Positions 3,791 to 19,040 of a DNA stretch of 45,846 nt are shown piece by piece (within the stretch, counting starts at the first letter, position 1; the number at the start of each line of letters is the position of its first letter). The DNA is from Herbiconiux sp. (lineage in GTDB: Bacteria > Actinomycetota > Actinomycetes > Actinomycetales > Microbacteriaceae): positions 1 through 45,846 of the forward strand of contig NZ_JAHFUW010000037.1 in the NCBI RefSeq assembly GCF_023264855.1, in the 5' to 3' direction. The position numbers and the translations under genes were made by a program. The notes under the pieces were generated by a model, which worked only from the letters and a program-made list of their open reading frames with translations, did no database searches and was not told the DNA's origin.

Positions 3791-4657
3791 TCAGACGAAC
3801 TCCTGCCGGATCGAGCCGAGCCCGTCGATCTCGGTGACGAGGATGTTCCCGGGCCTGAGGAACTCCTCGGGGGTGCGGCCCTGGCCTACACCGGCGGGCG
3901 TTCCGGTGAAGACGAGATCGCCCGGCTGCAGCTCGACGATGGCCGAGAGCTGCTCGATGATCGCCGGGATCGTGAAGATCATGTCCCGGGTGCGGCCGTC
4001 CTGCAGCACGCGCTCCCGTCCGGACGCGTCGATGCTGCGGCAGCTCACCCGCAGGTCGTCACGGTCCCGACCGGCCGAGATCTCGGCCACACTCACCACC
4101 GCGGGTCCCGTCGGCGCATAACCCTGGAACGACTTGCCGAGGCTGAACTGCGCCGACGCACCCCACCACTGCACGTCGCGGTCGCTGATGTCCTGCCCGA
4201 TCGTGAGACCGGCGATGCGGTCCCACGCCTCCGCGGCCGGGATGTCGCGCCCGCCCGTGCCGATCACGACCACGAGCTCCGCCTCCCAGTCGACCCGCTC
4301 GCCCGACAACCGCACCACGGCGTCGGGGCCGGTGAGACTGGAGGCGAACTTCGTGAAGACGAGCGGATGCTCCGGCAGCTCGAGCCCGGATTCCGCGGCG
4401 TGGTCGGCGTAGTTGAGCCCGACGGCGAGGATCTGACCGGGCCGGGGCACCGGCGGCCCGAGCGTGGTGAGGTCGACGTCGACCGCACGCGGGTGCCGGT
4501 CGACGTCGATCCCCTCGCCCCACTGGCACAGTTCGCGCCACGAGGTGTAGACCCGCTGCGGGTCGGCCGGGAAGCGGCCGGCGCCGGCAGTGGCGATGTC
4601 GAGCGCGCGGATGTCGCCGAGCAGCACCGCGCGGCCGTTCAGGTTCGCGACCCGCAT
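3791..4657 (-). CDS. Fumarylacetoacetate hydrolase family protein, likely diketo-deoxy sugar acid hydrolase
   Basis: The 288-residue FAH-family enzyme has the short N-terminal domain and a complete catalytic domain. Seen: LAVGLNYADHA, WEAELVVVIG with two metal-binding glutamates, IGQDISDRD with the metal-binding Asp, KSFQGYAPTGP with the conserved Lys, and the closing MIFTIPAIIEQLS and GDLVFTGTPAGVG blocks. Family members such as LRA6 hydrolyse 2,4-diketo-3-deoxy-L-rhamnonate, and related ones the fuconate analogue; others act in catechol-type pathways. Its place beside a sugar-acid dehydratase, a dehydrogenase and an alpha-L-rhamnosidase favours the sugar-acid role, giving pyruvate plus a 3-carbon product. 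The start overlaps the stop of the SGNH gene by one base (TGATG). Confidence 0.8.
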   Translation of the reverse strand: MRVANLNGRAVLLGDIRALDIATAGAGRFPADPQRVYTSWRELCQWGEGIDVDRHPRAVDVDLTTLGPPVPRPGQILAVGLNYADHAAESGLELPEHPLVFTKFASSLTGPDAVVRLSGERVDWEAELVVVIGTGGRDIPAAEAWDRIAGLTIGQDISDRDVQWWGASAQFSLGKSFQGYAPTGPAVVSVAEISAGRDRDDLRVSCRSIDASGRERVLQDGRTRDMIFTIPAIIEQLSAIVELQPGDLVFTGTPAGVGQGRTPEEFLRPGNILVTEIDGLGSIRQEFV

Positions 4658-5271
4658 CAGATCGTCACCGACTCGAACCAGGTACGCGCGAGCAGCTCGC
4701 GACCGGCGTCGGTCGGATGCACGCCGTCCCAGAGGAGCCCGGCCCGATCGCGCTCGTAGCCCGCCCGGGTGAATGCCACGTCGGCCTCCACGAGCTGGGC
4801 GTCGAACTCGCGCGCGAGCCCGCGGACGACCTCGATCTTGGGGTCGAGGTCTTCGCGCCAGCCCGCCTGCTCGGGTGTGAGGGCGAGCAGGAACGGCTCG
4901 ATCAGAACCAGGCGCGCCCCGGCATCCGTCGCCCGCGTCACCAGGTCGCGGTACGAAGCCTCGAACGCCTCGGTGGAGGTGGCCTCGCCGCCGTCGTAGC
5001 GGCGCCAGGTGTCGTTGATGCCCACGTGGATCGACACCACGTCGGGGTCGTGCCCGAGGCAGTCGCGGTCGAAACGGGCCGCGAGGTCGACCGCCCGGTT
5101 GCCGCCGATGCCGGTGTTGACCACGCGGCCGTCGAAGCCGGCCTCGGCACGACGACGGGCCACGCGCGCCACGTAGCCGGTTCCGAGGTCGTGCGGATCG
5201 TCGATCCGTCGTCCGTCTTCGGTGATGCTGTCTCCGATGAAGACCAGATTCTGTGCCACTCGTGTGCTCAC
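4657..5271 (-). CDS. SGNH/GDSL-type esterase
   Basis: The 204-residue SGNH hydrolase shows all four blocks: FIGDSIT near the N-terminus (Ser15 the nucleophile), TGIGGN (oxyanion Gly), HVGIND (oxyanion Asn) and LWDGVHPTDAG (catalytic Asp and His). It has no signal peptide, so it should be cytoplasmic. In glycan loci such enzymes usually remove acetyl or other acyl groups from imported sugars; rhamnogalacturonan acetylesterase is a related example, but no specific substrate can be read here. A lactonase role in the sugar-acid pathway is possible and would fill a missing step. It starts at GTG, overlapping the dehydrogenase stop by 4 bp (GTGA), inside the minus-strand operon. Confidence 0.8.
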   Translation of the reverse strand: MSTRVAQNLVFIGDSITEDGRRIDDPHDLGTGYVARVARRRAEAGFDGRVVNTGIGGNRAVDLAARFDRDCLGHDPDVVSIHVGINDTWRRYDGGEATSTEAFEASYRDLVTRATDAGARLVLIEPFLLALTPEQAGWREDLDPKIEVVRGLAREFDAQLVEADVAFTRAGYERDRAGLLWDGVHPTDAGRELLARTWFESVTI

Positions 5272-6314
5272 TTCGCGTAGTCGGCCGACTGGGCGAAGGC
5301 CACGAGCACTTTGCCCGGGATCTCGTCGCCGTTGGCCAGGTTCATGAACGCCTCGTCGGCGCTCTCGGGTCCGATCACTCGGCTGATGAGGGCCCCGGCG
5401 GTCAGGGGGTTGTCGGCGACCAGCTCGGCGGCATCGGCGAAATCGCGAGCCGAGTACGTGAAGCTGCCGACCAGGGTGCGCTCGGCGGTGCTGATCTGGA
5501 AGGCGTCGAGGCGCACCTGCGGCTCACCCATGCCGACGAGGCAGACCGTGCCGCCGAGCATCGTGCAGGCGAGGGCGTCGGCGATCGAGTGCGTGCTGCC
5601 CACGGCGTCGATGGCGACGTCGACGGGGCCGCCGAGCCGGCCGAGAGCGCCGGCGAGATCGCCCGCCGACGGATCGATCACCGGAACGCCCATCCCTTCG
5701 AGCAGTCTCCGGCGGGCCGGGCTGATCTCGCTGACGGAGATCTCCGCAACACCGAGTGCCTGCAGAACCAGCACCACCGACTGCCCGATCGGCCCTCCGC
5801 CGACGACCAGCACGCGCTGCTGCCCGGTCACCCCGGCGCGGCGGATGGCGTGCAGGGCGACGGCGGTCGGCTCCACCAGGGCGCCGTGCGCGACGGGCAT
5901 GCCGTCGGCGAGCCGCAGCACGTTGGCCGCGGGCACCACCACGTAGTCGGCGAAGGAGGCGTACCGGGCCGGATCGACGCCGATCACCGACTTGCGGGGC
6001 GAGTGCTGCTCGCGGTCGACGAACTCCACCCGGTCTTCGAGAGGGAGCACGACGGGGTTGAAGGTCACCGCGTCTCCGACGGCCAAGCCGAGCGGCTGAT
6101 CCCCGGGCCCGAATCCCTCGATCGTTCCCGAGCTCTCGTGACCCATCACCTGGCCGAGCGCCCGGCGCCCGTTGTGACCGGTGTATCCGTGGATGTCCGA
6201 GCCGCAGATGCCCGTGAACGCCACCCGGATCAGCACCTCGCCGATCGGCACCTCCGGTATGGGGCGATCGGCCAGGGCCATGCGCCCGAATTCCTCCAGG
6301 ACCAGTGTTCGCAC
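5268..6314 (-). CDS. Zinc-type medium-chain alcohol/polyol dehydrogenase
   Basis: MDR-superfamily NAD(P)-dependent dehydrogenase of 348 residues. I chose GTG 6314 (VRTLVLEEFG), which has AGAGGAAA about 7 nt upstream; the in-frame ATG at 6380 lies in the promoter. Catalytic zinc ligands are present (GICGSDIHGY, GHESSG, then LVEPTAVA), as is the Rossmann motif VLVVGGGPIGQ. The structural-zinc lobe is odd: between VTFNPVV and REQHSPRKSVIG, where polyol dehydrogenases carry four cysteines, there are none, although flanking residues are kept. It is the first gene of the minus operon dehydrogenase-SGNH-FAH-GH42. I infer oxidation of a sugar or 2-keto-3-deoxy sugar acid feeding the FAH enzyme; a sorbitol/idonate-type role is the alternative. 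Confidence 0.82.
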   Translation of the reverse strand: MRTLVLEEFGRMALADRPIPEVPIGEVLIRVAFTGICGSDIHGYTGHNGRRALGQVMGHESSGTIEGFGPGDQPLGLAVGDAVTFNPVVLPLEDRVEFVDREQHSPRKSVIGVDPARYASFADYVVVPAANVLRLADGMPVAHGALVEPTAVALHAIRRAGVTGQQRVLVVGGGPIGQSVVLVLQALGVAEISVSEISPARRRLLEGMGVPVIDPSAGDLAGALGRLGGPVDVAIDAVGSTHSIADALACTMLGGTVCLVGMGEPQVRLDAFQISTAERTLVGSFTYSARDFADAAELVADNPLTAGALISRVIGPESADEAFMNLANGDEIPGKVLVAFAQSADYAK

Positions 6315-6391
6315 GGTCGATTTCCTCTCGTCTCGCATCGTCGCATCGGAGTCGCCCGACGTCCGTCGAAGCGGTCCCACCCTATCAAAAA

Positions 6392-6427
6392 GTTCACCCG
6401 AATGATAACAAGTTCGAAATACAGAAC
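6392..6427 (+). promoter_or_regulatory. Predicted IclR-type operator, copy 1 (GTTC-N16-GTTC-N8-GAAC)
   Basis: GTTC at 6392 and 6412 and GAAC at 6424 form one half-site 20 bp upstream of an inverted repeat (AAGTTC, 8 bp, GAACTT). The same 36-bp geometry occurs at 14730 and 15778. It lies between the divergent dehydrogenase and dehydratase operons and can control both. A minus-strand TTGTTA (6406-6411), a plausible -35 of the dehydrogenase operon, lies within it. Confidence 0.6.
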
Positions 6428-6458
6428 TTTTCCCTGGCTTCTTCGTCGATTTCCCGGC

Positions 6459-6464
6459 TATAGT
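6459..6464 (+). promoter_or_regulatory. -10 box of dehydratase/rhamnosidase operon
   Basis: TATAGT lies 8 nt upstream of the ATG at 6473, so transcription could start at or very near the start codon and give a leaderless mRNA. No Shine-Dalgarno sequence is present. A further GTTCGAAAT copy overlaps and follows the box. Confidence 0.45.
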
Positions 6465-6472
6465 TCGAAATC

Positions 6473-7600
6473 ATGATTGACGGCTCACAGTCGAGAACCG
6501 CAGGCGTGACGATCGCCCGCACCGAGATCTTTCCCATCAACCTGCCCGCCACGCCGGACCAGGTTGCGGCCGGGTACTACCACCGCTACTGCGTGGTGCG
6601 CCTGACCACGACCGAGGGCGTGCGCGGCCACAGCTTCGCGGGGCCCATCGACCGCGCGGTCTGGCCGGCGGTCGTCGCCGCCACCGAAGGGTCGTCGATC
6701 ACCGACATCGACGGGATGCTGCGCCGCGGCCTCAATCGCGGCGCCGGCGCCGAGCACGCGGCCTGGGACGCCCTGGGCAAGACGCTCGGCGAACCCGTGC
6801 ACGCTCTGCTGGGCGGCGCGCGGATGCAGCAACTCAAGGCCTACGTCACGCTCGTCTGGCCGGGCGACCCCTCGCAGTCGCACGTCAGTCACGCCCAGAC
6901 CGTCGACGCCGTGCTGGCCTACCAGGCGGCGGGGTTCGAGGGCGTGAAGATCCGCTGCTGGCGGGAGCCCGGCGAGAACGCGCGAGTGTGCGAAGCGATC
7001 CTGGCCGCGACCGGCCCGGACTTCACCCTGATGGTCGATCGCACCGCCCACGTCTCCGGCGCCACCTGGAGCTACGAGCAGGCGCTCGCCGAGGCGCGCG
7101 AACTGCAGGACGTCGGGGTGCGCTGGCTCGAGGAACCGCTCGACCGTTACGACCTGAGCGGCCAGGCCCGGCTCGCCGACGAGATCGACATGCAGATCGT
7201 GGGCGGAGAGGGCTACACGACGCCGGAGGAGTTCGCCGCGGCGCTCGTGGCGCGCAGTTTCGACGTGATCCAGCCGGATGCGTCGATCGCCAACGGCATC
7301 CTGCCCACCGTTCGCGTAGCAGCGACGGCCGAGGCGCTGGGCGTGCCGGTGTGCCTGCACGGCACGGGCGGACTGCGGCTGCCGGGGTGGCTCCAGGCTG
7401 CCGCGCTCATCGGGCCGGAATGGCAGGAGCTCGCGATCATCCCGCCGACGCTGCATCCGGATGAGGCGTGGAGCCTGAACGAGAGCGTGATCCGCAGTGC
7501 GCCGTGGAGCGTCGACCGCGGGCGGATCAGCGTGCCGACGGCGCCCGGGCTCGGCATCGACGTCGACGACGACGCGCTCGACCGCTACCGGATCGGCTAG
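6473..7600 (+). CDS. Enolase-superfamily (mandelate racemase-like) sugar-acid dehydratase
   Basis: The 375-residue product has the enolase-superfamily capping domain and TIM barrel. Seen: VKIRCWR at the second-strand position where many relatives have K-x-K, MVDRTAH (first metal Asp), RWLEEPLDRYD (second metal Glu), IVGGEGY (third metal Glu) and CLHGTGG with a likely catalytic His. Relatives dehydrate aldonates such as rhamnonate, fuconate, galactonate or gluconate to 2-keto-3-deoxy acids. The K-x-R pattern prevents a confident substrate call. The next gene is an alpha-L-rhamnosidase 6 nt downstream, and the FAH enzyme and dehydrogenase are divergent, so L-rhamnonate or a similar 6-deoxy acid is the best guess. 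It has no ribosome binding site; see the -10 box at 6459. Confidence 0.82.
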   Translation: MIDGSQSRTAGVTIARTEIFPINLPATPDQVAAGYYHRYCVVRLTTTEGVRGHSFAGPIDRAVWPAVVAATEGSSITDIDGMLRRGLNRGAGAEHAAWDALGKTLGEPVHALLGGARMQQLKAYVTLVWPGDPSQSHVSHAQTVDAVLAYQAAGFEGVKIRCWREPGENARVCEAILAATGPDFTLMVDRTAHVSGATWSYEQALAEARELQDVGVRWLEEPLDRYDLSGQARLADEIDMQIVGGEGYTTPEEFAAALVARSFDVIQPDASIANGILPTVRVAATAEALGVPVCLHGTGGLRLPGWLQAAALIGPEWQELAIIPPTLHPDEAWSLNESVIRSAPWSVDRGRISVPTAPGLGIDVDDDALDRYRIG

Positions 7601-7606
7601 CCGCCG

Positions 7607-10150
7607 ATGGCCGTGCGCCTCACGCGCCTCACCGTCGAGCACGCCGAGGAGCCGCTCGGCGTCGACGTGCGGCCCCGCTTCGGCTGGGTGGTCGACGGCG
7701 GGGGAGCCGGCACCCGGGTACGCAGCTGGCGGCTCGAGCTGTTCGCGCCGAACGGGGAGCGCCTCTGGACTCGCGACGACCCGAGCGGTGGCCCGGGCGT
7801 CGACGTCGAGTACGACGGACCCGCACTCCGCTCCCTGACCCGGTACCGCTGGCAGGTCACCGTGACGGCCGATGAGGGCACGACGCGAGCATCCTCGGCG
7901 TTCGTCACGGGCATCCTCGACGACGACTGGCGTGGAGCGAAGTGGATCTCCCACCCCACCCCGGGCGGCGCCGCACCGCTGTTGCGCCAGGAGTTCACGG
8001 TGCCGCAGATCGCCGAGCCCCGGCCGGCCGCACCGAGCTACCTCGTGGTCGGCGCCGGCGGCTATGCGCGCCCCGAGATCAACGGCATGCTCGTGCCCGG
8101 CTTCGACCTCGCCCCCGGGTTCACCGACTACGACGTCACCGCCCAGTACGTCATGGTGGAGATCACCGAGTTCCTGGTGCCCGGCCGCAACGCCATCGGC
8201 GTCGAGCTCGGCCGCGGCTTCTACGGCATGGCCGCGCCCTCCACCTGGAACTGGGAGACCGCGCCGTGGCACGACGAGCCCTGTGTGCGCCTCCTGATCG
8301 TGACGGGCGACGAGGTGCTCGCGCTCTCCGACGAGAGCTGGCGGGCCGTCGACGGCCCCACCCGCTACGACGATCTCTACGGCGGCGAGGACTTCGACGC
8401 GCGGTGCGACCGCCCGGGCTTCTCCCTGGGCGGCTACGACGACGAGGGCTGGGCGCCGGTCACGCGCGCGAAAGGCCCCCGCGGCCGGAGCGTCGACCAG
8501 CGCCAGCAACCGATCGCGGTCATGCAGACCTTCGCTCCCGATCGGGTGGAGCAGAGAGCGCCGGGCCGGTGGCTCTTCACCTTTCCCCGGGTGATCGCGG
8601 GACGCATCCGTCTCCAGCTCGACGGCGCAGCGGGGCAGGTGGTGACCGTCCGCACGGCCGAGCGGCTCCGGGCGGACGGCCGGCCCGACAACGACGATCC
8701 GCTCGGCTACTACGCGGGGCGGTTCCAGGAGAGCCGGATCACTCTCGCCGGAGAGCCGCTCGGCTGGACGCAGCGGTTCGGCTACCAGGGCTTCCGGTAC
8801 GTGGAGGTCGAGGCGGCGCGCGAACCCGTGGTCGAGGCCGAGCTGCTGCACAGCGCGGTCGCCCGCACCGGCCGCTTCCACTGCTCGAACGCCTTGCTGA
8901 ACCGCCTGCACGACCTGACCGTCGGCACCGTGCTCAACAATCTGCACGGGCTGCCGACCGACACCCCGAAGTTCGAGAAGAACGGCTGGACGGGCGACGG
9001 GATGCTGGGCGCCGAGCTCATGCTGCTGAATCTCGACAGCCACGAGCTCCTCGCGAAGTGGGCGGACGACATCGCGGCCTCGCGCCACGGCGAGGGGGCG
9101 CCCGAGGTGATCGCACCGCACGGCGGCTGGTCGATGGACTGGACGCCGGCGCCGCCCTGGCATGCGTCGCTGCTGTTCGTGCCGTGGGAGATCTACTGGC
9201 AGCGCGGCGACGTGCGCGTGCTCGCCGACACCTGGCCCGACGCGAGCGCCTACCTCGAGTTCGAGCTGTCGCGCTGGCCGGACGGGATCGCCGACTCGAC
9301 CCTGGGCGACTGGGTGAGTCCGGATGCCGACCCCGGCGGCGGCAACGCGCCCGAAGACACCCGCGTGGCGGCCACCGCACTCCTCATCGCGGCTCTCGAC
9401 ATCGCCGCCCGCACGGCCGCCGTGCTCGGTCACGACTCGCACCGCTGGAGCGCCCACGCCGGCCGCCTGCGCCGGCGCTTCGTCGAGGAGTTCTTCGCCG
9501 CCGATCGCGAACAGGTCGTGGGCGCGGGGGACCGGGGAGACCGCCAGACCCACCAGGTGCTCGCGCTCGCCTTCGACCTGCTGCCGGAGCGGCACCGCCG
9601 GCCGGTGGCCGACACCCTGGCCCGGCTGATCCGGGAGAACGGCGACCACCTGAACACCGGCGCCCTCGGCACCAAGTACCTGCTGCCGCAGCTCACCCGC
9701 TACGGTCACGCCGATACGGCGCTCGCCGTGGCGCTGCAGACCGACTATCCGAGCTGGGGCCTCTGGGTCGAGGCGGGTGCGACCTCGCTCTGGGAGCACT
9801 GGAGCCCGGCCGCCCGGTCGCACGGTCACTACTTCCTCGGCACCATCGACGATTGGCTGTTCCGCTCCGTCGCCGGCATCTCCCCGGCGGCGGCCGGCTG
9901 GCGCGAGATCCGGATCGAACCCGCCGTGCTCGGCCTGGCCTCCGCCGAGGCCGAGGTGCTCACCCCGCTCGGGCGGGCCGGAGTCAGCTGGCGCACCGAG
10001 GGGCCCGGCGTCGTCATCGACGTCGAGATCCCGGTGGGAGCCGTGGCGACCGTGCGGCTCGGAGAGAGCGAATGGGCGGTCGCCGCCGGCCGGCACCGTC
10101 TGAATGGCCAGGTGCCGGCCGATCAGCCGCGCCTCGCGTCGTCGTCGTAG
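7607..10150 (+). CDS. GH78 alpha-L-rhamnosidase
   Basis: The 847-residue protein has the full family architecture: an Ig-like N-terminal domain (about 1-105, ending RYRWQVTV), beta-sandwich domains (about 110-420, with YNG-like ARPEING and GRGFYG), a six-hairpin (alpha/alpha)6 barrel (about 430-770) and a C-terminal beta domain. The catalytic region DTPKFEKNGWTGDG lies near residue 453, and the second conserved glutamate is in ATSLWEHW near residue 727. It has no signal peptide and so is cytoplasmic. It releases terminal L-rhamnose from imported oligosaccharides. It follows the dehydratase by 6 nt. Its last 28 bp overlap the 3' end of the convergent oxidoreductase gene, leaving no room for a conventional terminator. 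Confidence 0.92.
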   Translation: MAVRLTRLTVEHAEEPLGVDVRPRFGWVVDGGGAGTRVRSWRLELFAPNGERLWTRDDPSGGPGVDVEYDGPALRSLTRYRWQVTVTADEGTTRASSAFVTGILDDDWRGAKWISHPTPGGAAPLLRQEFTVPQIAEPRPAAPSYLVVGAGGYARPEINGMLVPGFDLAPGFTDYDVTAQYVMVEITEFLVPGRNAIGVELGRGFYGMAAPSTWNWETAPWHDEPCVRLLIVTGDEVLALSDESWRAVDGPTRYDDLYGGEDFDARCDRPGFSLGGYDDEGWAPVTRAKGPRGRSVDQRQQPIAVMQTFAPDRVEQRAPGRWLFTFPRVIAGRIRLQLDGAAGQVVTVRTAERLRADGRPDNDDPLGYYAGRFQESRITLAGEPLGWTQRFGYQGFRYVEVEAAREPVVEAELLHSAVARTGRFHCSNALLNRLHDLTVGTVLNNLHGLPTDTPKFEKNGWTGDGMLGAELMLLNLDSHELLAKWADDIAASRHGEGAPEVIAPHGGWSMDWTPAPPWHASLLFVPWEIYWQRGDVRVLADTWPDASAYLEFELSRWPDGIADSTLGDWVSPDADPGGGNAPEDTRVAATALLIAALDIAARTAAVLGHDSHRWSAHAGRLRRRFVEEFFAADREQVVGAGDRGDRQTHQVLALAFDLLPERHRRPVADTLARLIRENGDHLNTGALGTKYLLPQLTRYGHADTALAVALQTDYPSWGLWVEAGATSLWEHWSPAARSHGHYFLGTIDDWLFRSVAGISPAAAGWREIRIEPAVLGLASAEAEVLTPLGRAGVSWRTEGPGVVIDVEIPVGAVATVRLGESEWAVAAGRHRLNGQVPADQPRLASSS

Positions 10151-11187
10151 AGGCTCTCGATCACCTCGACCGCGCGGGCAGCGCGCTCCGCACCGGCCGT
10201 GAGGGTCATCAGAGGCTCATCGGAGTGGCCGGCGCGCACCTGGGCCACCGCGTCGATCAGGGTGCTGACCGGGGCGCCGTTCGGATAGGCCGACTCGCCC
10301 TCGCCCGGTTCGACGTGGCCGCTCGCGCCATCCGCCGTCGCCCAGTCGAGCGTCGCCCGGGCGAGGTCGTGCCGCGCCGATCCGGCGGTGCCGAGATAGC
10401 TGACGGACTGCTGCGCGGCCAGGCCGGGCAGGGCGCCTCCCGAGGAGAAGACGGTCGCGACCGCCGTGCCGGAGAGCTGCAGTGAGATCGCGTTGGCCGT
10501 GTCCATGCCGGGGGAGACGAACACGCTCTCGCCGGTGATCCGCTCCGGCCGTGCCCCCGTGGCATCCATGATCGCCGAGACCACGTGGGAGGTTTGGGAC
10601 TGGCCGTGACCGCCGCCGGAGACCGCAACATCCGCGTAGGTTTCGGGCAGCGGAGCGACGGTGTGCGGACGATTCACGCGCCGGAGGTATTCGTCGACGT
10701 CGCCGGTATAGAGGGGAGCCGTGTACGACTCGAACACGGCGTGCACGCCGACGAGGTCACCCAGCCTGCCCTCCGTCAGCAGCGCGCGAATCGCTCGTGC
10801 CGCCGCGGTGTACTGGTAGGGCAGGCTCACCGAGAGGCCGACGCGCCGCGAGGCGGCGAGGCGCACGAGTTCGTGGGCCTCGGCGGCCTGCAGGGTGAAG
10901 GGCTTCTCCACGAGCACGCTGACCTCGCTCAGGATGCCGGCCCGTGCGGCTCCGGCGTGGAACGCGGCGGGGGAGGCGACCACCAGCACGTCGAGGTCGC
11001 ACACCGCCAGCATCTCCTCGACCGTCGAGAATCCCCGCGTATCCGGAGCCCCCGCCGTCACGGAGGCGAGGCGCGCCGGGTCGGGGTCGCTCGCCGCGAC
11101 CAGCGCCGCATCCGGATGCGCCTCGATGGCCGGCACGTGCGCGTGCGCGGCCCACCAGCCGCAGCCGGTCAGACCTACTCGAATCAT
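10123..11187 (-). CDS. Gfo/Idh/MocA family sugar oxidoreductase (first copy)
   Basis: NAD(P)-dependent oxidoreductase of about 354 residues. It has an N-terminal Rossmann fold (IRVGLTGCGWWAAHAHVPAI), the family motif VEKPFTLQ containing the conserved lysine, and the large C-terminal beta-sheet domain. I chose the second of two adjacent ATGs (11187) because AGGAGG at 11192-11197 lies only 1 nt from the first. It follows the ABC-transporter binding-protein gene with 62 nt between, including a hairpin. Family members oxidise C1, C2 or C3 hydroxyls of sugars, inositols or glycosides. In this locus it could be the first (C1) dehydrogenase of a deoxysugar acid route or act on a 3-OH; the sequence does not decide. 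Confidence 0.8.
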   Translation of the reverse strand: MIRVGLTGCGWWAAHAHVPAIEAHPDAALVAASDPDPARLASVTAGAPDTRGFSTVEEMLAVCDLDVLVVASPAAFHAGAARAGILSEVSVLVEKPFTLQAAEAHELVRLAASRRVGLSVSLPYQYTAAARAIRALLTEGRLGDLVGVHAVFESYTAPLYTGDVDEYLRRVNRPHTVAPLPETYADVAVSGGGHGQSQTSHVVSAIMDATGARPERITGESVFVSPGMDTANAISLQLSGTAVATVFSSGGALPGLAAQQSVSYLGTAGSARHDLARATLDWATADGASGHVEPGEGESAYPNGAPVSTLIDAVAQVRAGHSDEPLMTLTAGAERAARAVEVIESLYDDDARRG

Positions 11188-11206
11188 CATGCCTCCTCAT
11201 GCGGAA

Positions 11207-11235
11207 CTGGCCCGCGATGCGCGATCGCGGGCCAG
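11207..11235 (-). terminator. Intra-operon hairpin after binding-protein gene
   Basis: A perfect inverted repeat has 12-bp arms (CTGGCCCGCGAT and its complement) and a 5-nt GCGCG loop. It has no T-run. Hairpins at this place, just after the binding-protein gene, often protect the upstream mRNA or partly stop transcription so that the binding protein is made in excess. Confidence 0.6.
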
Positions 11236-11252
11236 ATCCTGTGGGTTCGGTG

Positions 11253-12686
11253 CTACTGCTGCGCCCAGTCGTCGGTCCACTTGCCGTCGGAGGCGACCTC
11301 TTTCGCGCTGGTCGTCCACTGGTCCAGCGTCTCGGTGAGCTGGTCGTCGAGCGACTTGTTGCCCGTCAGGTAACCCGTGTAGATCGCCTGCCCGAGAAGC
11401 GCCTTGGGCAGCAGTGCCGGCTGCGGAACGGTGGGGCTGAGGGCCCAGTCGCCCGTGGTGAGCCCCTCGAGTCCCGGTGCGGGCTTCGCGTCGGCGAGGG
11501 CGGGGATGCCGCCGGTCTTGTCGAGCCAGGGCTGGATGCCCACGGGGCTGGAGGCGAATTGCAGGAACTTCACGGCCGCGTCGAGCTTGTCGCCCTCGGT
11601 GGTGGCCGGGATCATGTAGCTCGTTCCGCCCGTGTTCGCACCGGAGCGGGCGCCCTCACCGGTGGAGAGCGGGCTGTCCTGCTTCGTGATCGTCGGGAAC
11701 GGGAGGGTTCCGTAGTCCCAGCCGACGTCGTCGAGGCTGGTCGCCGAGAAGTTGGCGCCGAACGACATCGCGGCCTTTCCGGCCAGGAATTCCTGGGCGC
11801 CGGTGAAGGCGGCCCCCGTGCTGGCCACACCAGACCAGTTCGGGGTGGCGCACGCGTCGACGACCTCCTTGGCGAGGGTGAACGCCTCACCGATCTCGGG
11901 GGTGTTCTGCGGGGTGAACTCCCCGGTGAGAACGCCCTTCGAATAGTCCTTCACCGAGATCTGCTTCGAGGTGCCGGGCTTGCCGTCGGGCCCGTAGTAG
12001 TTCAGTTCGTCGAAGTACTTGGTGAGCAGCATCGAGGTGATCGGCTTCACCACGTTCGCCTGGGCGAGGTAGCTGTTGTCGAAGGCCAGGGGCGTGAAGC
12101 CCGCCGCGCTGATCGCCTTGCAGTCCGTGATGAGGTCGCCGTAAGTCGCGGGCGGCTCGTCGATGCCGGCGGCCGCGAACACGTCCTTGTTGTAGTAGAT
12201 GCCGCTGAGATAGAGATTGAACGGCACGAACTCGTAGTGCTGCGCCGCATTGCGGCCCACGTTCGCCTCGCCGCCGATGTAGTCGGGGTTGAAGGCCGTG
12301 ATCCACTTCTCGTTGCCCTCGATGTACGGATTCGGCTGCTCGAAGTAGTCGTCGAGAGCGACGACCTGATCGGGCTTGTGCGAGACCTGGTTGAAGATCA
12401 GCTCCGGGGCCGTTCCGGCGGCGAGCTGCGTCGAGAGCGTCTGGTAGAACTCGGTGAGCGGCAGCACCACCGTCTTCACCTCGATGTTCGGCTCGGCGGC
12501 CTCGAAGCGGTCGACGAGGTCCTCCCAGGCCGGTCCGAAGCTCTGCGGGTCGGTGTTCCACTGGTTCGGCCCGGCGATCGTGATGGTGGTCTTGTCCGAA
12601 CTGGCGCCGGGAGCGCATCCGGCGAGTGCGAGGGCGGTGGCGGCGACCACCCCGAGCGCGATGATCGGTTTGAGCTTGCTATACAT
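11253..12686 (-). CDS. CUT1-type sugar ABC transporter substrate-binding lipoprotein
   Basis: The 477-residue extracellular solute-binding protein (SBP_bac_1 type) has a lipoprotein signal: MYSKLKPIIALGVVAATALA followed by the lipobox LAGC. I start it at ATG 12686; the in-frame frame upstream lacks signal-peptide character. The mature part shows the usual two-lobe features, including NLYLSGIYYNKDVFAAAGI and GAAFTGAQEFLAGKAAM. An AAGGG lies about 10 nt upstream. It follows the two permease genes and binds the imported sugar or oligosaccharide outside the membrane. The ligand cannot be read, but the neighbouring rhamnosidase and galactosidase suggest a rhamnose/galactose-containing oligosaccharide. 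Confidence 0.9.
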   Translation of the reverse strand: MYSKLKPIIALGVVAATALALAGCAPGASSDKTTITIAGPNQWNTDPQSFGPAWEDLVDRFEAAEPNIEVKTVVLPLTEFYQTLSTQLAAGTAPELIFNQVSHKPDQVVALDDYFEQPNPYIEGNEKWITAFNPDYIGGEANVGRNAAQHYEFVPFNLYLSGIYYNKDVFAAAGIDEPPATYGDLITDCKAISAAGFTPLAFDNSYLAQANVVKPITSMLLTKYFDELNYYGPDGKPGTSKQISVKDYSKGVLTGEFTPQNTPEIGEAFTLAKEVVDACATPNWSGVASTGAAFTGAQEFLAGKAAMSFGANFSATSLDDVGWDYGTLPFPTITKQDSPLSTGEGARSGANTGGTSYMIPATTEGDKLDAAVKFLQFASSPVGIQPWLDKTGGIPALADAKPAPGLEGLTTGDWALSPTVPQPALLPKALLGQAIYTGYLTGNKSLDDQLTETLDQWTTSAKEVASDGKWTDDWAQQ

Positions 12687-12753
12687 CCTTGTATTGCCCT
12701 TCTGTGTGAGTAATGACGATGTGTGATCGGTGACGAAGACGCCGGAGGTGCGG

Positions 12754-13623
12754 TCAGTGCGAGCCCGGGAGCCCACCCTGGATTCCGGCCAGGAAGTACT
12801 TGGAGAGAAAGAGGAACAGCAGCAGCAGCGGAAGGCTCGCGATCATGTAGCCCGCGAACATCGCGCCGTAGTCGGTGCCCGCCTGCCCACGGAAGAACAG
12901 CAGCCCGACGCTCACCGGCTTCAGGGCGTTGTCGGTCACCGTGAGCAGCGGCCAGAAGAAGTCGTTCCACACGCCGATCACGGTGAGCAGCGAGACGGTG
13001 CCGACGACCGGCAGCGACAGCGGAAGCATGATCGAGCGGAACAGGCGGCCCGCGCCGGCGCCGTCGACCCGTGCGGCGTCGAACAGCTCCTGCGGGATGC
13101 CCTCGATGAAGGTCTTCATCAGGATGGTGCCGAGCACCGCTCCCCCCGCGATCCTCGGGATGATCAGCACCCAGAGCGTGTTCAGCAGGTCGAGGTCGCG
13201 CATCATCACGAACAGCGGGATGAGGCTCGCGATGCTCGGCACCATGAGCAGGGCGATCACCATCGTGAAGAAGAACCGGCGGCCGGGGAACTGGAAGCGG
13301 GCGAAGACGTATCCCGAGAGCAGGCTCAGGGCGACGATCCCGACGATCGAGACCGCGGCGACCACGACGGAGACCAGCATGAACGGAGCGATCTGGTTCC
13401 AGGCCGTTCCGTAGTTCTCGAAGTGCAGGGGGAACGACGGTGCCCAGTAGCTCGTGGCGAACTGCTCGTTGGTCTTCACCGACGTGGTGAGCACGAAGAG
13501 GTAGGGCAGCAGCCCCACGGCCACGATCGTGATCAGGGCGATGTGGATGCCGGCGCCGCTGCGGCGGCGTCTCACCTTCGTGCGGGGAGGCCGGCTCGGG
13601 GCCTGGATGGTCGCTGCAGACAT
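12754..13623 (-). CDS. CUT1 sugar ABC transporter permease, MalG-like
   Basis: The 289-residue inner-membrane protein has six predicted membrane segments, from IHIALITIVAVGLLPYLFVL to LPLLLLFLFL. The EAA-loop motif EGIPQELFDAARVDGAG, which couples to the ATPase, is intact. It starts at ATG 13623, 5 nt after the stop of the upstream permease, with AAAGGGA upstream. It is the MalG/second-permease type by its C-terminal QGGLPGS-like ending. No ATP-binding gene is present in the operon, so it probably uses a shared MsiK-type ATPase encoded elsewhere, as is usual for actinobacterial CUT1 systems. Confidence 0.9.
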   Translation of the reverse strand: MSAATIQAPSRPPRTKVRRRRSGAGIHIALITIVAVGLLPYLFVLTTSVKTNEQFATSYWAPSFPLHFENYGTAWNQIAPFMLVSVVVAAVSIVGIVALSLLSGYVFARFQFPGRRFFFTMVIALLMVPSIASLIPLFVMMRDLDLLNTLWVLIIPRIAGGAVLGTILMKTFIEGIPQELFDAARVDGAGAGRLFRSIMLPLSLPVVGTVSLLTVIGVWNDFFWPLLTVTDNALKPVSVGLLFFRGQAGTDYGAMFAGYMIASLPLLLLFLFLSKYFLAGIQGGLPGSH

Positions 13624-13628
13624 GACGG

Positions 13629-14600
13629 TCACATCCCTTTCACATTGGTCGTGGAATCGCGGCGCTTGGCGAGGGCCACGATCGTGCTGAAGACGATGGT
13701 GAGCACGAAGAGCGTGGTCGACAGCGCCGCCGCATAGCCCCAGTTGCCTCCGTTGAAGGCCTCGCTCAGCATGTGCAGCACGGGCACCGTCGTCGCGTTG
13801 TCGGGCCCTCCGCTGGTGAGGATGTAGGCGACGAACCCGTACTGCAGGGTCTCGATGACCACCAGCACGAGCAGCAGCTGCAGCTGCCGGCCCATCAGCG
13901 GCAGGTCGATCAGGAAGAGCCGCTGCATCCGGTTCACGCCGTCGAGCGAGCAGGCCTCGAAGATCTCCTTCGGGATGTTCTGCAGCGTCGAGTAGAACAT
14001 CAGGAACGGCAGGCCCGCGATGAAAGGGAAGCCGATGAACAGCAGCGAGAGCAGGGCGAGGTGGGGGTCGCCCAGCCAGTTCTGGGCGAGCGACTCGAGG
14101 CCGATCGACGTGAGGAAGGTGTTGATGACTCCGTCGTTGGGCTGGTAGAGGAACGACCAGATCAGCGCGGTGACGACGCCCGGGAACGCCATGGGCACGA
14201 TCAGGAGCGTGCGGTACACGAACTGCGCGCGCTCGCTGCGCAGGGAGATGAGCAGCTCTGCGGCCGCCAGCGGGATCACCCAGGAGACGACGCCGAAGAC
14301 GAAGATGATGCCGAGGTTCTTGAACGACTCCCACCAGAGCTGATCGCCCATCATGGCGGAGTAATTGTCGAAGCCGATGAAGGTCGACTCCCCGCCCGGG
14401 TTCCAGTTCCAGAACGAGTGGAAGATGCCGCTCGCGGCGGGGTAGTAGCAGAACACCCCCAGCATGACGGCCAGCGGGACGAGCCCGAGATACGCTCCCC
14501 AGCTGATCGATCGCCGGCGCGGACGGCGCTTCGGCGGACGGGTGTCTGCGGTGATCACCATCGCATCCGGCACCACCCGGTCAGGTGTCTGTATGGCCAT
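13629..14600 (-). CDS. CUT1 sugar ABC transporter permease, MalF-like
   Basis: The 323-residue inner-membrane protein has an Arg/Pro-rich cytoplasmic N-terminus (about 1-33) and six predicted membrane segments beginning YLGLVPLAVMLGVFCYYPA. The EAA loop reads NIPKEIFEACSLDGVNRMQR. A strong ribosome binding site (GTGGAGGGCAC) precedes the ATG. It is the first gene of the minus-strand operon permease-permease-binding protein-oxidoreductase. Its promoter region holds a perfect TTGACA -35 and the second copy of the shared operator. Confidence 0.9.
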   Translation of the reverse strand: MAIQTPDRVVPDAMVITADTRPPKRRPRRRSISWGAYLGLVPLAVMLGVFCYYPAASGIFHSFWNWNPGGESTFIGFDNYSAMMGDQLWWESFKNLGIIFVFGVVSWVIPLAAAELLISLRSERAQFVYRTLLIVPMAFPGVVTALIWSFLYQPNDGVINTFLTSIGLESLAQNWLGDPHLALLSLLFIGFPFIAGLPFLMFYSTLQNIPKEIFEACSLDGVNRMQRLFLIDLPLMGRQLQLLLVLVVIETLQYGFVAYILTSGGPDNATTVPVLHMLSEAFNGGNWGYAAALSTTLFVLTIVFSTIVALAKRRDSTTNVKGM

Positions 14601-14729
14601 GTGCCCTCCACGTTGAGTAGGCGCCGGCTGCCGCGATCGAGGTGGAGATCGTCGGCGTCAGCGCGTGACCGAAAGCGCGCCTTCAAGGGCGCAATCGGCC
14701 GAACGCACGAAAGTCTCGCAGACCAAAAG

Positions 14730-14765
14730 GTTCATGTCAAGGAATCGGCGTTCACGTGGGTGAAC
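14730..14765 (+). promoter_or_regulatory. Predicted IclR-type operator, copy 2 (GTTC-N16-GTTC-N8-GAAC)
   Basis: GTTC at 14730 and 14750 and GAAC at 14762. The inner palindrome is GTTCAC, 4 bp, GTGAAC (14750-14765). A further GTTC at 14790 is exactly 40 bp from 14750, on the same helical face, and overlaps the likely -35 of iclR. The site lies between the transporter operon and the regulator gene, so it can control import and autoregulation. Confidence 0.6.
14735..14740 (-). promoter_or_regulatory. -35 box of ABC-transporter operon
   Basis: A perfect TTGACA on the minus strand sits inside the operator, 1 nt from the GTTC half-site. GAGACT follows after 17 bp as a weak -10. Binding at the operator should occlude it. 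Confidence 0.5.
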
Positions 14766-14877
14766 TATGGGCTGAATCCGGCCCCATAAGTTCATCGAGC
14801 TGTATCCTGATCCTATAGACGGGACGCTGTTCCGGTCTCAATGCGCCGGCTCGGATGCGGCGTGAGGGAAGGAAGTC

Positions 14878-15651
14878 ATGGCGACGGACGACAAGGGCAC
14901 CAGCGTCAAGTCCGCCGAACGGGCGCTCGGACTGATCGAGTTCGTGAGCGAGCACGAGAGTGTGAGCTTCGGGGAGATCCTGACCGAGCTCTCCATCCCG
15001 CGATCCAGTGCGCACGGACTCCTCCAGACGCTCACGGCCACGGGCTGGGTCGCGCACGACCCGCGCACCCGCCAGTACTCGCTCGGGCTCCGTGCCTGGC
15101 AGGTCGGGCAGAACTTCCGGGGCCACACCGACCTGCTTGGCATCGTGCGCCCCTTCATGGACAAGCTCGCCGGCGCTGTGGGGGAGACGGTTCAGCTCGC
15201 GCAGCTCGACGGCGTGAACAACGTCTACATCGCCATCAGCCAGGCCGCTCGCACGATGCGGCTCGCGTCGTCGGTGGGCACGCAGCTGCCGGCTCATGCG
15301 ACGGGCATCGGCAAGACGCTCCTCGGTCTGCTGCCGCCCGCGGAGGCGGAACGGCGCCTGCGCGCGGCCGCACCGCTCGAGCACCTCACCGAGCGCACGG
15401 TCTCCGATGTCGACGAGCTGCTCGTCGTGCTCGACCGTGTGCGCGAGGAGGGCTTCGCCCTCGACGACGAGGAGTACATGAGCGGATGCCGCTGTGTCGC
15501 GGTGCCGTTGCCGTTCCTGTCCGACGCGCACCGCCAGATGGCGATCTCGCTCACCATGCCCACCTCGCGCACCGGTGAGCAGTGGCCGGGTGACATCCTG
15601 GGCCAGCTGCGCGCGACGGTGACCGAGCTCGAAGCGACCATCCGCCCCTAG
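14878..15651 (+). CDS. IclR-family transcriptional regulator
   Basis: The 257-residue protein has an N-terminal winged helix (about residues 10-70; VSFGEILTELSIPRSSAHGL is the helix-turn-helix) and a C-terminal IclR effector-binding domain (ETVQLAQLDGVNNVYIA, GTQLPAHATGIGKTLL, GFALDDEEYMSGCRCVAVPL). GGAAGGAAG precedes the ATG. It sits inside the sugar locus, transcribed divergently from the transporter operon. The three 36-bp operator copies at 6392, 14730 and 15778 flank exactly the genes it would be expected to control, so I infer it is the local regulator, with a pathway intermediate or substrate as effector. The alternative TATAGA at 14814 is a plausible -10 for this gene. Confidence 0.9.
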   Translation: MATDDKGTSVKSAERALGLIEFVSEHESVSFGEILTELSIPRSSAHGLLQTLTATGWVAHDPRTRQYSLGLRAWQVGQNFRGHTDLLGIVRPFMDKLAGAVGETVQLAQLDGVNNVYIAISQAARTMRLASSVGTQLPAHATGIGKTLLGLLPPAEAERRLRAAAPLEHLTERTVSDVDELLVVLDRVREEGFALDDEEYMSGCRCVAVPLPFLSDAHRQMAISLTMPTSRTGEQWPGDILGQLRATVTELEATIRP

Positions 15652-15777
15652 AGGCGATCTGGCGACTTCCTTTCCCGGGCGGTGTTCCACTGCCCTGCCT
15701 TTCCTGCTGCCGGCGGGGCGATTTGGCGATCGCGTCTTGCCTTCGACGGCGGCGCTCCAGTAGCGTCGTGTCGAAAA

Positions 15778-15813
15778 GTTCATTCTGACGTATTTAAGTT
15801 CAGAATAGTGAAC
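15778..15813 (+). promoter_or_regulatory. Predicted IclR-type operator, copy 3 (GTTC-N16-GTTC-N8-GAAC)
   Basis: GTTC at 15778 and 15798 and GAAC at 15810. The inner palindrome is AGTTCA, GAATAG, TGAACT (15797-15814). TAGGAT at 15816-15821 is a plausible -10, so the palindrome would lie between -35 and -10, as expected of a repressor site for the GH99-like gene. Confidence 0.6.
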
Positions 15814-15833: not shown

Positions 15834-18800
15834 GTGCACGATGCAGTCGATCCAGACGCCGTTCCGTCGGCCCAGAGCGAGTGGCTGATGGAACCGGTCC
15901 CCGGCCGGGGGATCAGCCGTCGCTCTTTTCTCTCCATCGCCGCTGCCGCGTCGGCCGTCAGTGGCCTGCTGCTCATGGACAAGCCGGGGCAGGCGTCGGC
16001 ACATCCGCTCCCCGCCGCCTTCGTCAGAGACACGTCGGGCTCCGCCGGCACGGCCCGGTACCTGGTGGAAGAGGACTTCCACATGCCGAACGCCGTCACC
16101 GACCCGATTCTGATCGTGCCGTCGGGGTGGGACGTCCGTCAGGCCGGCGGCAGCTTCACGTTCGCGTACGGACGCTGGGCGAAGGTGACCGACAGCGGAG
16201 GCCTGCCCGTCGTGATGCAGCGGCGGTTCACGGCGCACGAGGCCGGCGTGCTCACCGTCGACTTCCGGTTCGAACCCCTCACCGCGCTCAACGGCGTGAC
16301 CTGGACGGTCGGAACCACCGGGGCGAACGCGGTCGTGCTCACCGCCGACGCGGGCCAGCTGAGCGTGCAGACGCCGACGGGAGCCCAGGCCCTGGCGAGC
16401 CTCACCGTCGGAACGCCGGTGGGCGTGCGCGTGATCCTCGACCTCGACGCGGGGCAGTTCACCGTCTCCGTCAACGGGGCCACGGCGACTGCCGCGATCC
16501 CCTTCGCCCAGGCCGCGACCGTGCTCGACCTCTTCACCATCCAGACGAGCGAGGCCTTCGTCGGCAACTTCTACATCGACACCGTGCGCATCCACCGCGG
16601 CTTCGTGGTGAACGAGTCGTTCGTGACCGTGCCGAGCGGCCTTCCCGCCGACTGGGCCGCGGCGGGTGCGGGTGCGGTCTTCTCGATCGCCGAGCTGCAC
16701 GGATCGAGCTACGCAGATCGCTACAGCCTGCTGGTGAACACGCTCGCAGCCACCGCGCCCGCGACGTTCCAGCGCACCTTCACGGCGCTCACCGACGACC
16801 TGACCTTCGAGTTCCGCTTCCTCGCCCCATCCGGCGCACAGAACGTCTCGGCGGTGCTCTCGGAGGGCACGCAGCCCGGGCTCCAGATCGGGGCCTCCGC
16901 CGGCAGCATCACCTACGCGGATGCGAGCGGAGCACCGGTGGTCTGCTACGACTGCAAGCCCAACCTCTGGTACCACGTGCGCGTGACGACCGACGCGGCG
17001 AACAATCAGGCCACCATCGTCGTGAACGGCAAGACCGCCGCATCCGGAGTCGCGATCCCGGCCGTCACCGCGGTCGACACCCTGACGTTCGGAGTCGGAG
17101 CGGGGCCGTCGGGCAAGGTCTACCTCGACGACATCCGGCTCTCGGTCACGCCCCCGGATCCCACCGACTACGTGCCCACCCCCGTGCCGCTGGACACCGG
17201 CGACTACCTCGTCGGCGTGCAGACCTTCGCCGGCTGGCGCGAGGGTCATCACCAGGGCTGGGATGCTCTGAGCCCCTATCCGAGCCGCAAGCCGCTGCTC
17301 GGCTGGTACGACGAAGGCGACCCGGAGGTCACCGACTGGGGCATCAAGTGGATGGTGGAGAACGGCATCTCGTTCGAGCTGGCGTGCTGGTTCCGCCCGC
17401 TGGACGGGGTGGGGCAGCCGATCAAGGTGCCCGACCTCGGCCACCACCTCCACCAGGGGCTCTTCACCTCGCGCTACAAGTCGCTCGTGAAGTTCGCCAT
17501 CATGTACGAGAACATCAGCAGTGGCGCCACCAACAGCAGCGACTTCCGCACGGTGATGGTGCCGTACTGGATCGAGTACTACTTCCGCGACCCGAGCTAC
17601 CTGGTCATCGACAACAAGCCGGTGTTCTCGATCTACTCCATTCCGAAGCTCATCACGACCTTCGGCAGCGCTGCGGCGGCGGCTGCGGAGGTCGCGTATC
17701 TCCGCACGGCGGTGCAGGCCGCCGGGTTCGACGACCTCATCATCATCGCCCCGCAGGTCGACGCTAATGCGCCGACCGTCGGCGTCGATGCCCAGTACAA
17801 GTACAGCGTCGGCGCCGTCGCCGCGCTCACCGAGGGCTACCGGCAGAACCTGCTCACCTGGCGCGGCAACGCCGTGGTCGACGTGGTGCCGACCATCTCG
17901 ATGGGGCAGGACCAGCTGCCCTGGAACCTCACGCCAGGAGCGTGGGCGAGCGTGACCGATTTCGAGGCGAATGCGACCTGGGTGCGCGACGACTTCATGC
18001 CGGCGCTACCCACGTCGAGTCTCGGCCGGTCGATGGTGCTGGTCGACAACTGGAACGAATTCGGCGAGGGCCACTTCGTGATGCCCAGTGCGCTGGCCGG
18101 ATTCGGCTACGTGAACGCGGTCGCGAACGTGTTCGGTTCGGCCACGCCCGGCGCGAACGTCACTCCCACCACCGCACAGGCGGAGCGGCTGGGCCTGCTC
18201 TACCCGGCCGACCGCACCCAGCCGCTCAAGGAGCTGCCGGCGCCGGCCAAGCCCGACGACTACTGGACGCGATGGACGTTCGACACCGACGGCGACGTCG
18301 AGGGCTGGACCAACAGCGAGAACAACCAGGTCACGAACATCCAGGTGCAGGACGGTGTGCTGACGGCCACCTCGATCGGCACCGACCCGGGCCTGGTGTC
18401 ACCCGACCATCTCGGCATCGACGCCAATCGGGCGCCGTGGGTGCGGATTCGGATGAAGAGCGACACGCCTCCGGAGTACTTCTACTTCATCACCGAGGCC
18501 GACTCGACGTGGAGCCAGGACAAAGGCGCGCAGGTGATCGTCGATTCGTACAACGACGAATTCGGCGTGGGGTACATCGCGGCGTGGGGCAACGCCAAAT
18601 GGGTCGGCACGATCCGGCAGATCCGGATCGACATGATGTCGACGCCCGGCGACTTCACGATCGACGAGATCGGCGTGGTGAAGGTGCCGCTCACCCCTCC
18701 GGCGCTGCTCGTCGGCGGCAAGTACTCCCGCACCGCGGTTCCCCTGCTCGCCCCGAACGGCACGCCGATGGTGCCTGCGGCCTATGTGGTGGAGGCGACG

Positions 18801-19040
18801 GGCGGTCGCCCCGAGTGGCGCCCGGACACCCAGTGGTTCGTCGCCCGGCACACCGGGACGACGCTGATCGCCCAGGTCGCCAGCAGTTCGGCCCACGCCG
18901 GGGCGACGGTCATCCACCTGGATGCGCCGTGCCTGTGGGTCGGCGGTCGCTTCTACATCGCCGCGACGTTCTTCCAGCAGGCGCTCGGGTACACCGTCAC
19001 CTGGGATGCCACGGCCCAACTGCTGACGATCACCCCGTGA
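15834..19040 (+). CDS. Tat-exported multidomain GH99-like (WbsX-type) glycan-active protein
   Basis: The 1068-residue protein starts at GTG with AAGGGAG 5 nt upstream. Residues 28-33 (SRRSFL) plus a following hydrophobic stretch form a Tat signal. Two concanavalin/LamG-like beta-sandwich repeats follow (about 85-255 and 260-440), each ending in a YIDTVRI or YLDDIRLS strand. A GH99-like barrel of WbsX type occupies about 456-780; its end shows DNWNEFGEG, the usual W-N-E-(W/F)-G-E-G signature. Then come a carbohydrate-binding-like beta domain (about 810-960) and a C-terminal copper-amine-oxidase-N-like repeat (about 965-1068, FYIAATFFQQALGYTV). I infer extracellular attack on the glycan before import. 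The activity within the GH99-like group is unknown, and WbsX-type proteins are also linked to glycan synthesis. Confidence 0.78.
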   Translation: MHDAVDPDAVPSAQSEWLMEPVPGRGISRRSFLSIAAAASAVSGLLLMDKPGQASAHPLPAAFVRDTSGSAGTARYLVEEDFHMPNAVTDPILIVPSGWDVRQAGGSFTFAYGRWAKVTDSGGLPVVMQRRFTAHEAGVLTVDFRFEPLTALNGVTWTVGTTGANAVVLTADAGQLSVQTPTGAQALASLTVGTPVGVRVILDLDAGQFTVSVNGATATAAIPFAQAATVLDLFTIQTSEAFVGNFYIDTVRIHRGFVVNESFVTVPSGLPADWAAAGAGAVFSIAELHGSSYADRYSLLVNTLAATAPATFQRTFTALTDDLTFEFRFLAPSGAQNVSAVLSEGTQPGLQIGASAGSITYADASGAPVVCYDCKPNLWYHVRVTTDAANNQATIVVNGKTAASGVAIPAVTAVDTLTFGVGAGPSGKVYLDDIRLSVTPPDPTDYVPTPVPLDTGDYLVGVQTFAGWREGHHQGWDALSPYPSRKPLLGWYDEGDPEVTDWGIKWMVENGISFELACWFRPLDGVGQPIKVPDLGHHLHQGLFTSRYKSLVKFAIMYENISSGATNSSDFRTVMVPYWIEYYFRDPSYLVIDNKPVFSIYSIPKLITTFGSAAAAAAEVAYLRTAVQAAGFDDLIIIAPQVDANAPTVGVDAQYKYSVGAVAALTEGYRQNLLTWRGNAVVDVVPTISMGQDQLPWNLTPGAWASVTDFEANATWVRDDFMPALPTSSLGRSMVLVDNWNEFGEGHFVMPSALAGFGYVNAVANVFGSATPGANVTPTTAQAERLGLLYPADRTQPLKELPAPAKPDDYWTRWTFDTDGDVEGWTNSENNQVTNIQVQDGVLTATSIGTDPGLVSPDHLGIDANRAPWVRIRMKSDTPPEYFYFITEADSTWSQDKGAQVIVDSYNDEFGVGYIAAWGNAKWVGTIRQIRIDMMSTPGDFTIDEIGVVKVPLTPPALLVGGKYSRTAVPLLAPNGTPMVPAAYVVEATGGRPEWRPDTQWFVARHTGTTLIAQVASSSAHAGATVIHLDAPCLWVGGRFYIAATFFQQALGYTVTWDATAQLLTITP

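Follow-up and report, generated by a model that had tools for sequence, protein, structure and literature searches.

The tandem operators predicted for IclR-family regulators by Suvorova and Gelfand in 2021 are the closest described counterparts of the sites reported here (PMC8222616). The available parts of that survey give the group 1 IclR consensus as GKTYCRYW3-4RYGRAMC, with a subgroup NGT-12-ACN, and find sugar-acid genes to be frequent in group 1 regulons. They also predict two arrangements, tandems spaced 18-22 nt apart (94 orthologous groups) and three boxes that alternate in direction (32 groups), and name PcaU, PobR, and HmgR as cases of an external direct half-site. In these parts, the operator types are treated as separate and are taken to suggest two dimerization modes. 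Because this survey describes them, the geometry, the two-dimer idea, and the gene class discussed below are already known; the regulator and regulon considered here were not found named in the parts available. Like the published tandems, each of the present sites appears to pair two palindromes of group 1, separated by roughly two helical turns and located at genes of sugar-acid metabolism, but the copies in our DNA seem to have one decayed box.

Two further IclR-family proteins invite comparison. PheR of Sphingobium is a repressor with a Hill coefficient of 1.95 and a protected region of 44 bp, from -21 to +23 (PMC13273656). Its footprint over the transcription start is about the size of the operators proposed here, and it likewise displays signs of cooperativity, but it has its own operator sequence and its substrate is phenanthrene. 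TtgV, an IclR-family tetramer, is said to have been found by Lu et al. in 2010 to bind its operator cooperatively. TtgV differs in being an efflux-pump regulator, and our regulator matches the TtgV-operator structure 2xro weakly in sequence (E 7e-15).

With respect to the sugar, the LacI-type RhaR of Actinomycetales co-regulates uptake and catabolism of rhamnose and its oligosaccharides, as the available part of the regulon paper describes (PMC3870299). RhaR differs both in family and in serving a phosphorylative pathway. IclR is absent from the main text of that paper, as far as this text is available, and a literature search for an IclR regulator of rhamnonate genes gave no paper on the present regulator, judged by title.

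A repeated element in a sugar locus

The window is the whole stretch of DNA analyzed, 45,846 nucleotides from a Herbiconiux species. Its sugar-degradation cluster includes the following genes and sites. The four boxes of each site are given in order, and the second box is not part of the 36-bp pattern, GTTC-N16-GTTC-N8-GAAC, from which the analysis began.

1711..3789, minus strand: GH42-type beta-galactosidase, in the operon of the Zn-dependent dehydrogenase
3791..4657, minus strand: FAA hydrolase; best NCBIfam match is 2,4-didehydro-3-deoxy-L-rhamnonate hydrolase, below cut-off (172 of 500 bits)
4657..5271, minus strand: GDSL-type esterase, in the operon of the Zn-dependent dehydrogenase
5268..6380, minus strand: Zn-dependent dehydrogenase, predicted O1 target; true start probably downstream of the listed GTG
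6392..6427, plus strand: operator O1, GTTC/GATA/GTTC/GAAC, with a putatively decayed box 2, between the divergent Zn-dependent dehydrogenase and dehydratase-like genes; exact in six of six genomes
6463..6498, plus strand: operator-like O4, GTTC/GATT/GCTC/GAAC, 71 bp after O1; one mismatch in six of six genomes
6473..7600, plus strand: enolase-superfamily (MR_MLE) sugar-acid dehydratase-like gene
7607..10150, plus strand: alpha-L-rhamnosidase (GH78-type domains)
10123..14600, minus strand: ABC importer operon (permease, permease, solute-binding protein, Gfo/Idh oxidoreductase), predicted O2 target
14730..14765, plus strand: operator O2, GTTC/GAAT/GTTC/GAAC, between the ABC importer operon and iclR; exact in six of six genomes
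14790..14805, plus strand: extra unit GTTC-N8-GTAT at the iclR promoter, 40 bp from the second palindrome of O2
14878..15651, plus strand: IclR-family regulator (Pfam IclR_C 129 bits, cut-off 24; HTH_IclR 45 bits, cut-off 22)
15778..15813, plus strand: operator O3, GTTC/GTAT/GTTC/GAAC, upstream of the GH99-like (WbsX-domain) gene; exact in five of six genomes, with one mismatch in genome G005
15834..19040, plus strand: secreted GH99-like/WbsX-domain protein, predicted O3 target
19099..20238 and 20231..21244, downstream of the GH99-like gene: Gfo/Idh gene, then xylose-isomerase-like gene

The 14878-15651 protein belongs to the IclR family, with both its helix-turn-helix and C-terminal domains above the Pfam cut-off. 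It falls below the cut-off of every NCBIfam model matched, including that of the PcaR/PcaU/PobR subfamily (TIGR02431; 137.5 bits, cut-off 284.75). The secreted GH99-like protein ends in a copper-amine-oxidase N1-type domain, which is an unusual combination.

The pattern lies at 6392-6427, 14730-14765, and 15778-15813, where a sequence-only reading had placed it, and all three copies are indeed intergenic: the first separates the dehydrogenase and dehydratase-like genes, the second the importer operon and iclR, and the third iclR and the GH99-like gene. These are the only exact copies in the whole genome (97 contigs, 4.37 Mb), in which the reversed control pattern has no match, and 100 dinucleotide-preserving shuffles of the window contain none. 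The same reading had held chance to be unlikely, and three copies within 9.4 kb, zero in the shuffles and none elsewhere in the genome bear this out. If one mismatch is allowed, 24 additional matches appear, namely 6463-6498, the 14730 site on the opposite strand, and 22 outside the locus. Among 398 genomes of the family, 165 have at least one exact match. A lone match is therefore unremarkable, three in 9.4 kb are remarkable, and the case for the pattern rests on clustering and conservation.

Conservation is found in six genomes: that of the window, four others of the genus Herbiconiux, and Leifsonia sp. 71-9. H. ginsengi, strain 3FA27C10, MAG GW715, and Leifsonia sp. 71-9 carry each of the three operators without a mismatch at the equivalent position, and G005 carries two, so that 17 of the 18 copies are exact. 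The boxes stand out in the alignments, and the eight central bases of the palindromes drift. An orthologue of iclR occurs in five of 16 same-genus genomes, the present one included. Among eleven genus members scanned for the pattern, four have the orthologue and carry 3, 3, 3, and 2 copies; the other seven lack the orthologue and carry 0 or 1. Chance recurrence of twelve common bases, for which the many family genomes with a match might speak, has a negligible probability and is rejected on the shuffles, the genome-wide scan, and the conservation, the last of which already refutes it.

The number of sites is less certain than their position. Three copies are exact, as had been claimed, and the weaker O4 probably makes a fourth. 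A profile trained on the sites themselves, O4 included, was used to score 150 of 865 first-look candidates in the genome; it gave four matches, all at the sugar locus, with O4 the sole one beyond the exact copies. Because O4 runs across a -10-like TATAGT and the start codon (ATG, 6473) of the dehydratase-like gene, its conservation partly has another cause. A further GTTC at 14790, noticed earlier as lying 40 bp away, is present and conserved in all six genomes: GTTCA and CTGTAT of the unit are invariant, the 24-25 bases separating it from O2 diverge, and the distance from this GTTC to the left arm of the palindrome is 40 bp in five genomes and 41 bp in G005 (counted by eye). A GTTC-N8-GAAC palindrome also occurs at 11904-11919, inside the solute-binding-protein gene, and at the corresponding place in the related loci L040-L043. 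This is coding sequence, and it was excluded from the operator count.

Probable tandem palindromes at a 20-bp pitch

Repeated at a 20-bp pitch, GTTC-N8-GAAC becomes GTTC-N8-GAAC-N4-GTTC-N8-GAAC, and the 36-bp pattern is the same array minus box 2. The sequence-only reading had seen one half-site plus a palindrome of two. The fixed 20-bp geometry is real, but the sites are better read as four boxes in two tandem palindromes, of which the inner second box appears to have decayed in the Herbiconiux/Leifsonia clade. O2 retains 15 of the 16 letters and is the only nearly complete tandem in the window. Box 2 begins with G at all four sites in all six genomes (24 of 24 sequences), and no other position beyond the reported boxes is invariant. 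This conservation has another possible cause, because the surroundings of box 2 in O1 and O2 overlap possible -35 elements.

Loci of iclR homologues in other bacteria are suggestive of the complete form. Forty-two were fetched, and mismatches to the two palindromes were counted in 32. Outside Herbiconiux/Leifsonia, where the orthologous iclR genes are 45-57% identical, 12 of 25 loci keep both palindromes with no more than one mismatch apiece; the palindromes are 20 bp apart in 11 loci and 21 bp in one. Pitch was scored in the best 29 of the 42 loci (L040-L068; 45-94% identical), with the 13 most distant left out. Of the 29, from eleven genera, 26 score best for two palindromes at pitch 20. Paenarthrobacter peaks at 21 instead, one of two Pseudonocardia loci at 26, and the other equally at 19 and 23. 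A score of at least 14 out of 16 is reached by 20 loci at pitch 20, and otherwise by a single locus at 21 and another at 26. Mononucleotide shuffles (n = 580) never exceed 12, but real sequence at wrong pitches reaches 13, so the shuffles are a lenient control and the comparison of pitch with pitch is the better one. Of the 26 loci that favor pitch 20, ten belong to Microbacterium, nine of them with almost the same site sequence, which reduces the independent evidence to about a dozen lineages. In the Microbacterium sites the decay is mirrored: one palindrome is intact, and the other has a poor inner box. A matching operator adjoins the orthologous iclR in all eleven genera, through different gene orders.

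The GTTC-N8-GAAC core and spacing of O1-O3 agree with a group 1 IclR operator of the NGT-12-ACN subgroup, and the inner RY..RY and A/T-rich center of that consensus are present only in part at the window sites. With the 26 loci at pitch 20 and two more at 19 or 21, the spacing also falls within the 18-22 nt between centers of the published tandems. The alternating-direction three-box type does not fit: the perfect boxes run direct, direct, inverted, and the order alternates only when the weak box 2 is included. The operators of PcaU, PobR, and HmgR are alike in joining a palindrome to a direct-repeat external half-site (PMC8222616, in the parts available). They differ in that relatives of our regulator have a second full palindrome, so the outer half-site at the window reads as the remnant of a palindrome. 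The external direct repeat of PcaU is likewise 20 bp away.

Proposed regulation and its alternatives

The reading that we prefer, at a probability of about 0.72, is that each 36-bp element is an operator of the 14878-15651 protein, comprises tandem palindromes, and is bound by two dimers or one tetramer that represses until a sugar acid releases it. The centers of the two palindromes, 20 bp or two helical turns apart, would lie on one face of the DNA, and the protein is predicted to bind O1-O4 and to regulate its own gene; occupancy by a dimer pair or tetramer agrees with published data on the family. Since the operators sit on or beside core promoters, the bound protein would most likely act as a repressor of the catabolic, dehydratase/rhamnosidase, importer, GH99-like, and iclR genes. 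That the sites cover promoters for hydrolysis, import, and catabolism had been proposed from the start, and the proposal holds up: the set is non-random, conserved, and locus-specific, and a matching operator lies beside iclR in the eleven genera.

The promoter elements were picked by eye, aided by alignments, because a scan for sigma-70-like promoters and terminators found none at its threshold at the three operator places. TTGACA occurs on the minus strand at 14735-14740, within O2, and a conserved TTGCCT-18-TAGCGT pair at 15737-15766 lies just before O3. The -10-like TATAGT at 6459-6464 is followed after 8 bases by the ATG of the dehydratase-like gene. By eye, the interval 6459-6475 contains no clear Shine-Dalgarno sequence, so the mRNA of this gene may be leaderless.

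A rhamnose-derived sugar acid is the likeliest inducer, as suggested by the neighbors of the orthologues, by the dehydratase of Arthrobacter globiformis, and by the rhamnosidase, GH42, GH99-like, and importer genes of the window. The regulator adjoins a dehydrogenase like that of the window in 22 of 25 orthologous loci and an FAA hydrolase in 18 of 25. In A. globiformis, the tandem operator is followed by an operon for an MFS transporter, a dehydrogenase of the window's kind, and an enzyme that scores as L-rhamnonate dehydratase (744 bits, cut-off 393). The hydrolase of this operon most resembles 2,4-didehydro-3-deoxy-L-rhamnonate hydrolase, at a below-cut-off 278 of 500 bits. The dehydratase-like protein and FAA hydrolase of the window are both below the cut-offs for L-rhamnonate dehydratase and the diketo-acid hydrolase. 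The repressor would most likely be released by a sugar-acid intermediate of a non-phosphorylative L-rhamnose-type pathway.

It is possible, if unlikely, that the sites are true three-box operators of the PcaU/PobR/HmgR kind, in which a dimer occupies the palindrome, a further subunit the outer half-site, and box 2 has no function. Three boxes are perfect and the second is not, the Microbacterium sites could equally be a palindrome with one outer box and a poor inner one, and PcaU is reported to need its external direct repeat (cited in PMC8222616, in the parts available). A box without function is hard to square with an invariant G in all 24 sequences, with the near-complete O2, or with the two palindromes kept in 12 of 25 distant loci.

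The direction of regulation is a separate matter. PcaU and PobR act as activators, and NCBIfam scores the present regulator with their family, at a below-cut-off 137 of 285 bits, so activation deserves some weight, but it too is improbable: O3 follows its putative promoter, picked by eye, and O4 covers a start codon, positions that suit blocking. Less probable still is that another transcription factor binds these sites and that iclR is merely a neighbor. Identical geometry does precede azlC in other genera without a nearby IclR gene. However, the site stays beside the iclR orthologue through varied gene orders in eleven genera, genus members without the orthologue have at most one match, and the core fits the IclR consensus. 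On the preferred reading, this cluster from a soil actinobacterium is a tidy new example of the known tandem IclR switch. An unstudied IclR regulator thereby gains a concrete candidate operator, a small list of predicted targets, and a likely class of substrate, all of which make it easy to test.

A possible box lattice, and the geometry away from iclR

What may be new is a single four-box array that unites the published IclR operator types. Group 1, group 2, three-box, palindrome with external half-site, and tandem palindromes could all be sub-selections of one lattice of boxes repeating about every 20 bp (GTTC-N8-GAAC-N4) and bound by one tetramer. Different boxes would decay in different lineages, here the second, and a second dimerization mode would not be needed. 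The spacing arithmetic of the published consensus sequences allows such a lattice, in which group 2 would be the middle of a tandem, and orthologues of our regulator have the complete four-box array and two forms of box loss. We regard this as a tentative hypothesis, and a rather doubtful one, which draws on arithmetic with the spacings and on a single group of regulators. The range from intact to partly decayed tandems next to orthologues of one regulator does offer a good natural experiment on whether the operator types originate from one tetramer footprint.

The distribution of the geometry speaks against the lattice. Across the family, 29 loci match the four boxes with at most one mismatch. 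At 25 of them an IclR gene is absent within about 1.5 kb, and the IclR genes at the other four are all orthologues of the window regulator. An orthologue-derived profile, applied to 39 further loci bearing the 36-bp pattern (about 3 kb of sequence at 30, about 11-20 kb at nine), found no IclR gene at any of them; its only match in this search was at L093, which lacks the pattern. The four-box geometry is thus not exclusive to IclR, judging from these sequences, and the 36-bp pattern was rejected as a general marker of IclR loci.

Two other settings of the geometry were observed. Just upstream of azlC, whose product belongs to an exporter family for branched-chain amino acids, the half-site arrangement recurs in three further genus-level groups (L087:9992, L088:9989, L089:9964, and L124:1501), and an IclR gene is absent from the neighborhood; to connect it with the IclR-type leucine regulator NdgR/LtbR would be guesswork. 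In genome G356, a perfect four-box match (L117:1501 and further places) forms part of a longer inverted repeat. Copies similar to it, GTTCTGCC...GGCAGAAC, are found repeatedly in G356, and perhaps in G322, and the G356 element looks like a repeated hairpin rather than an operator.
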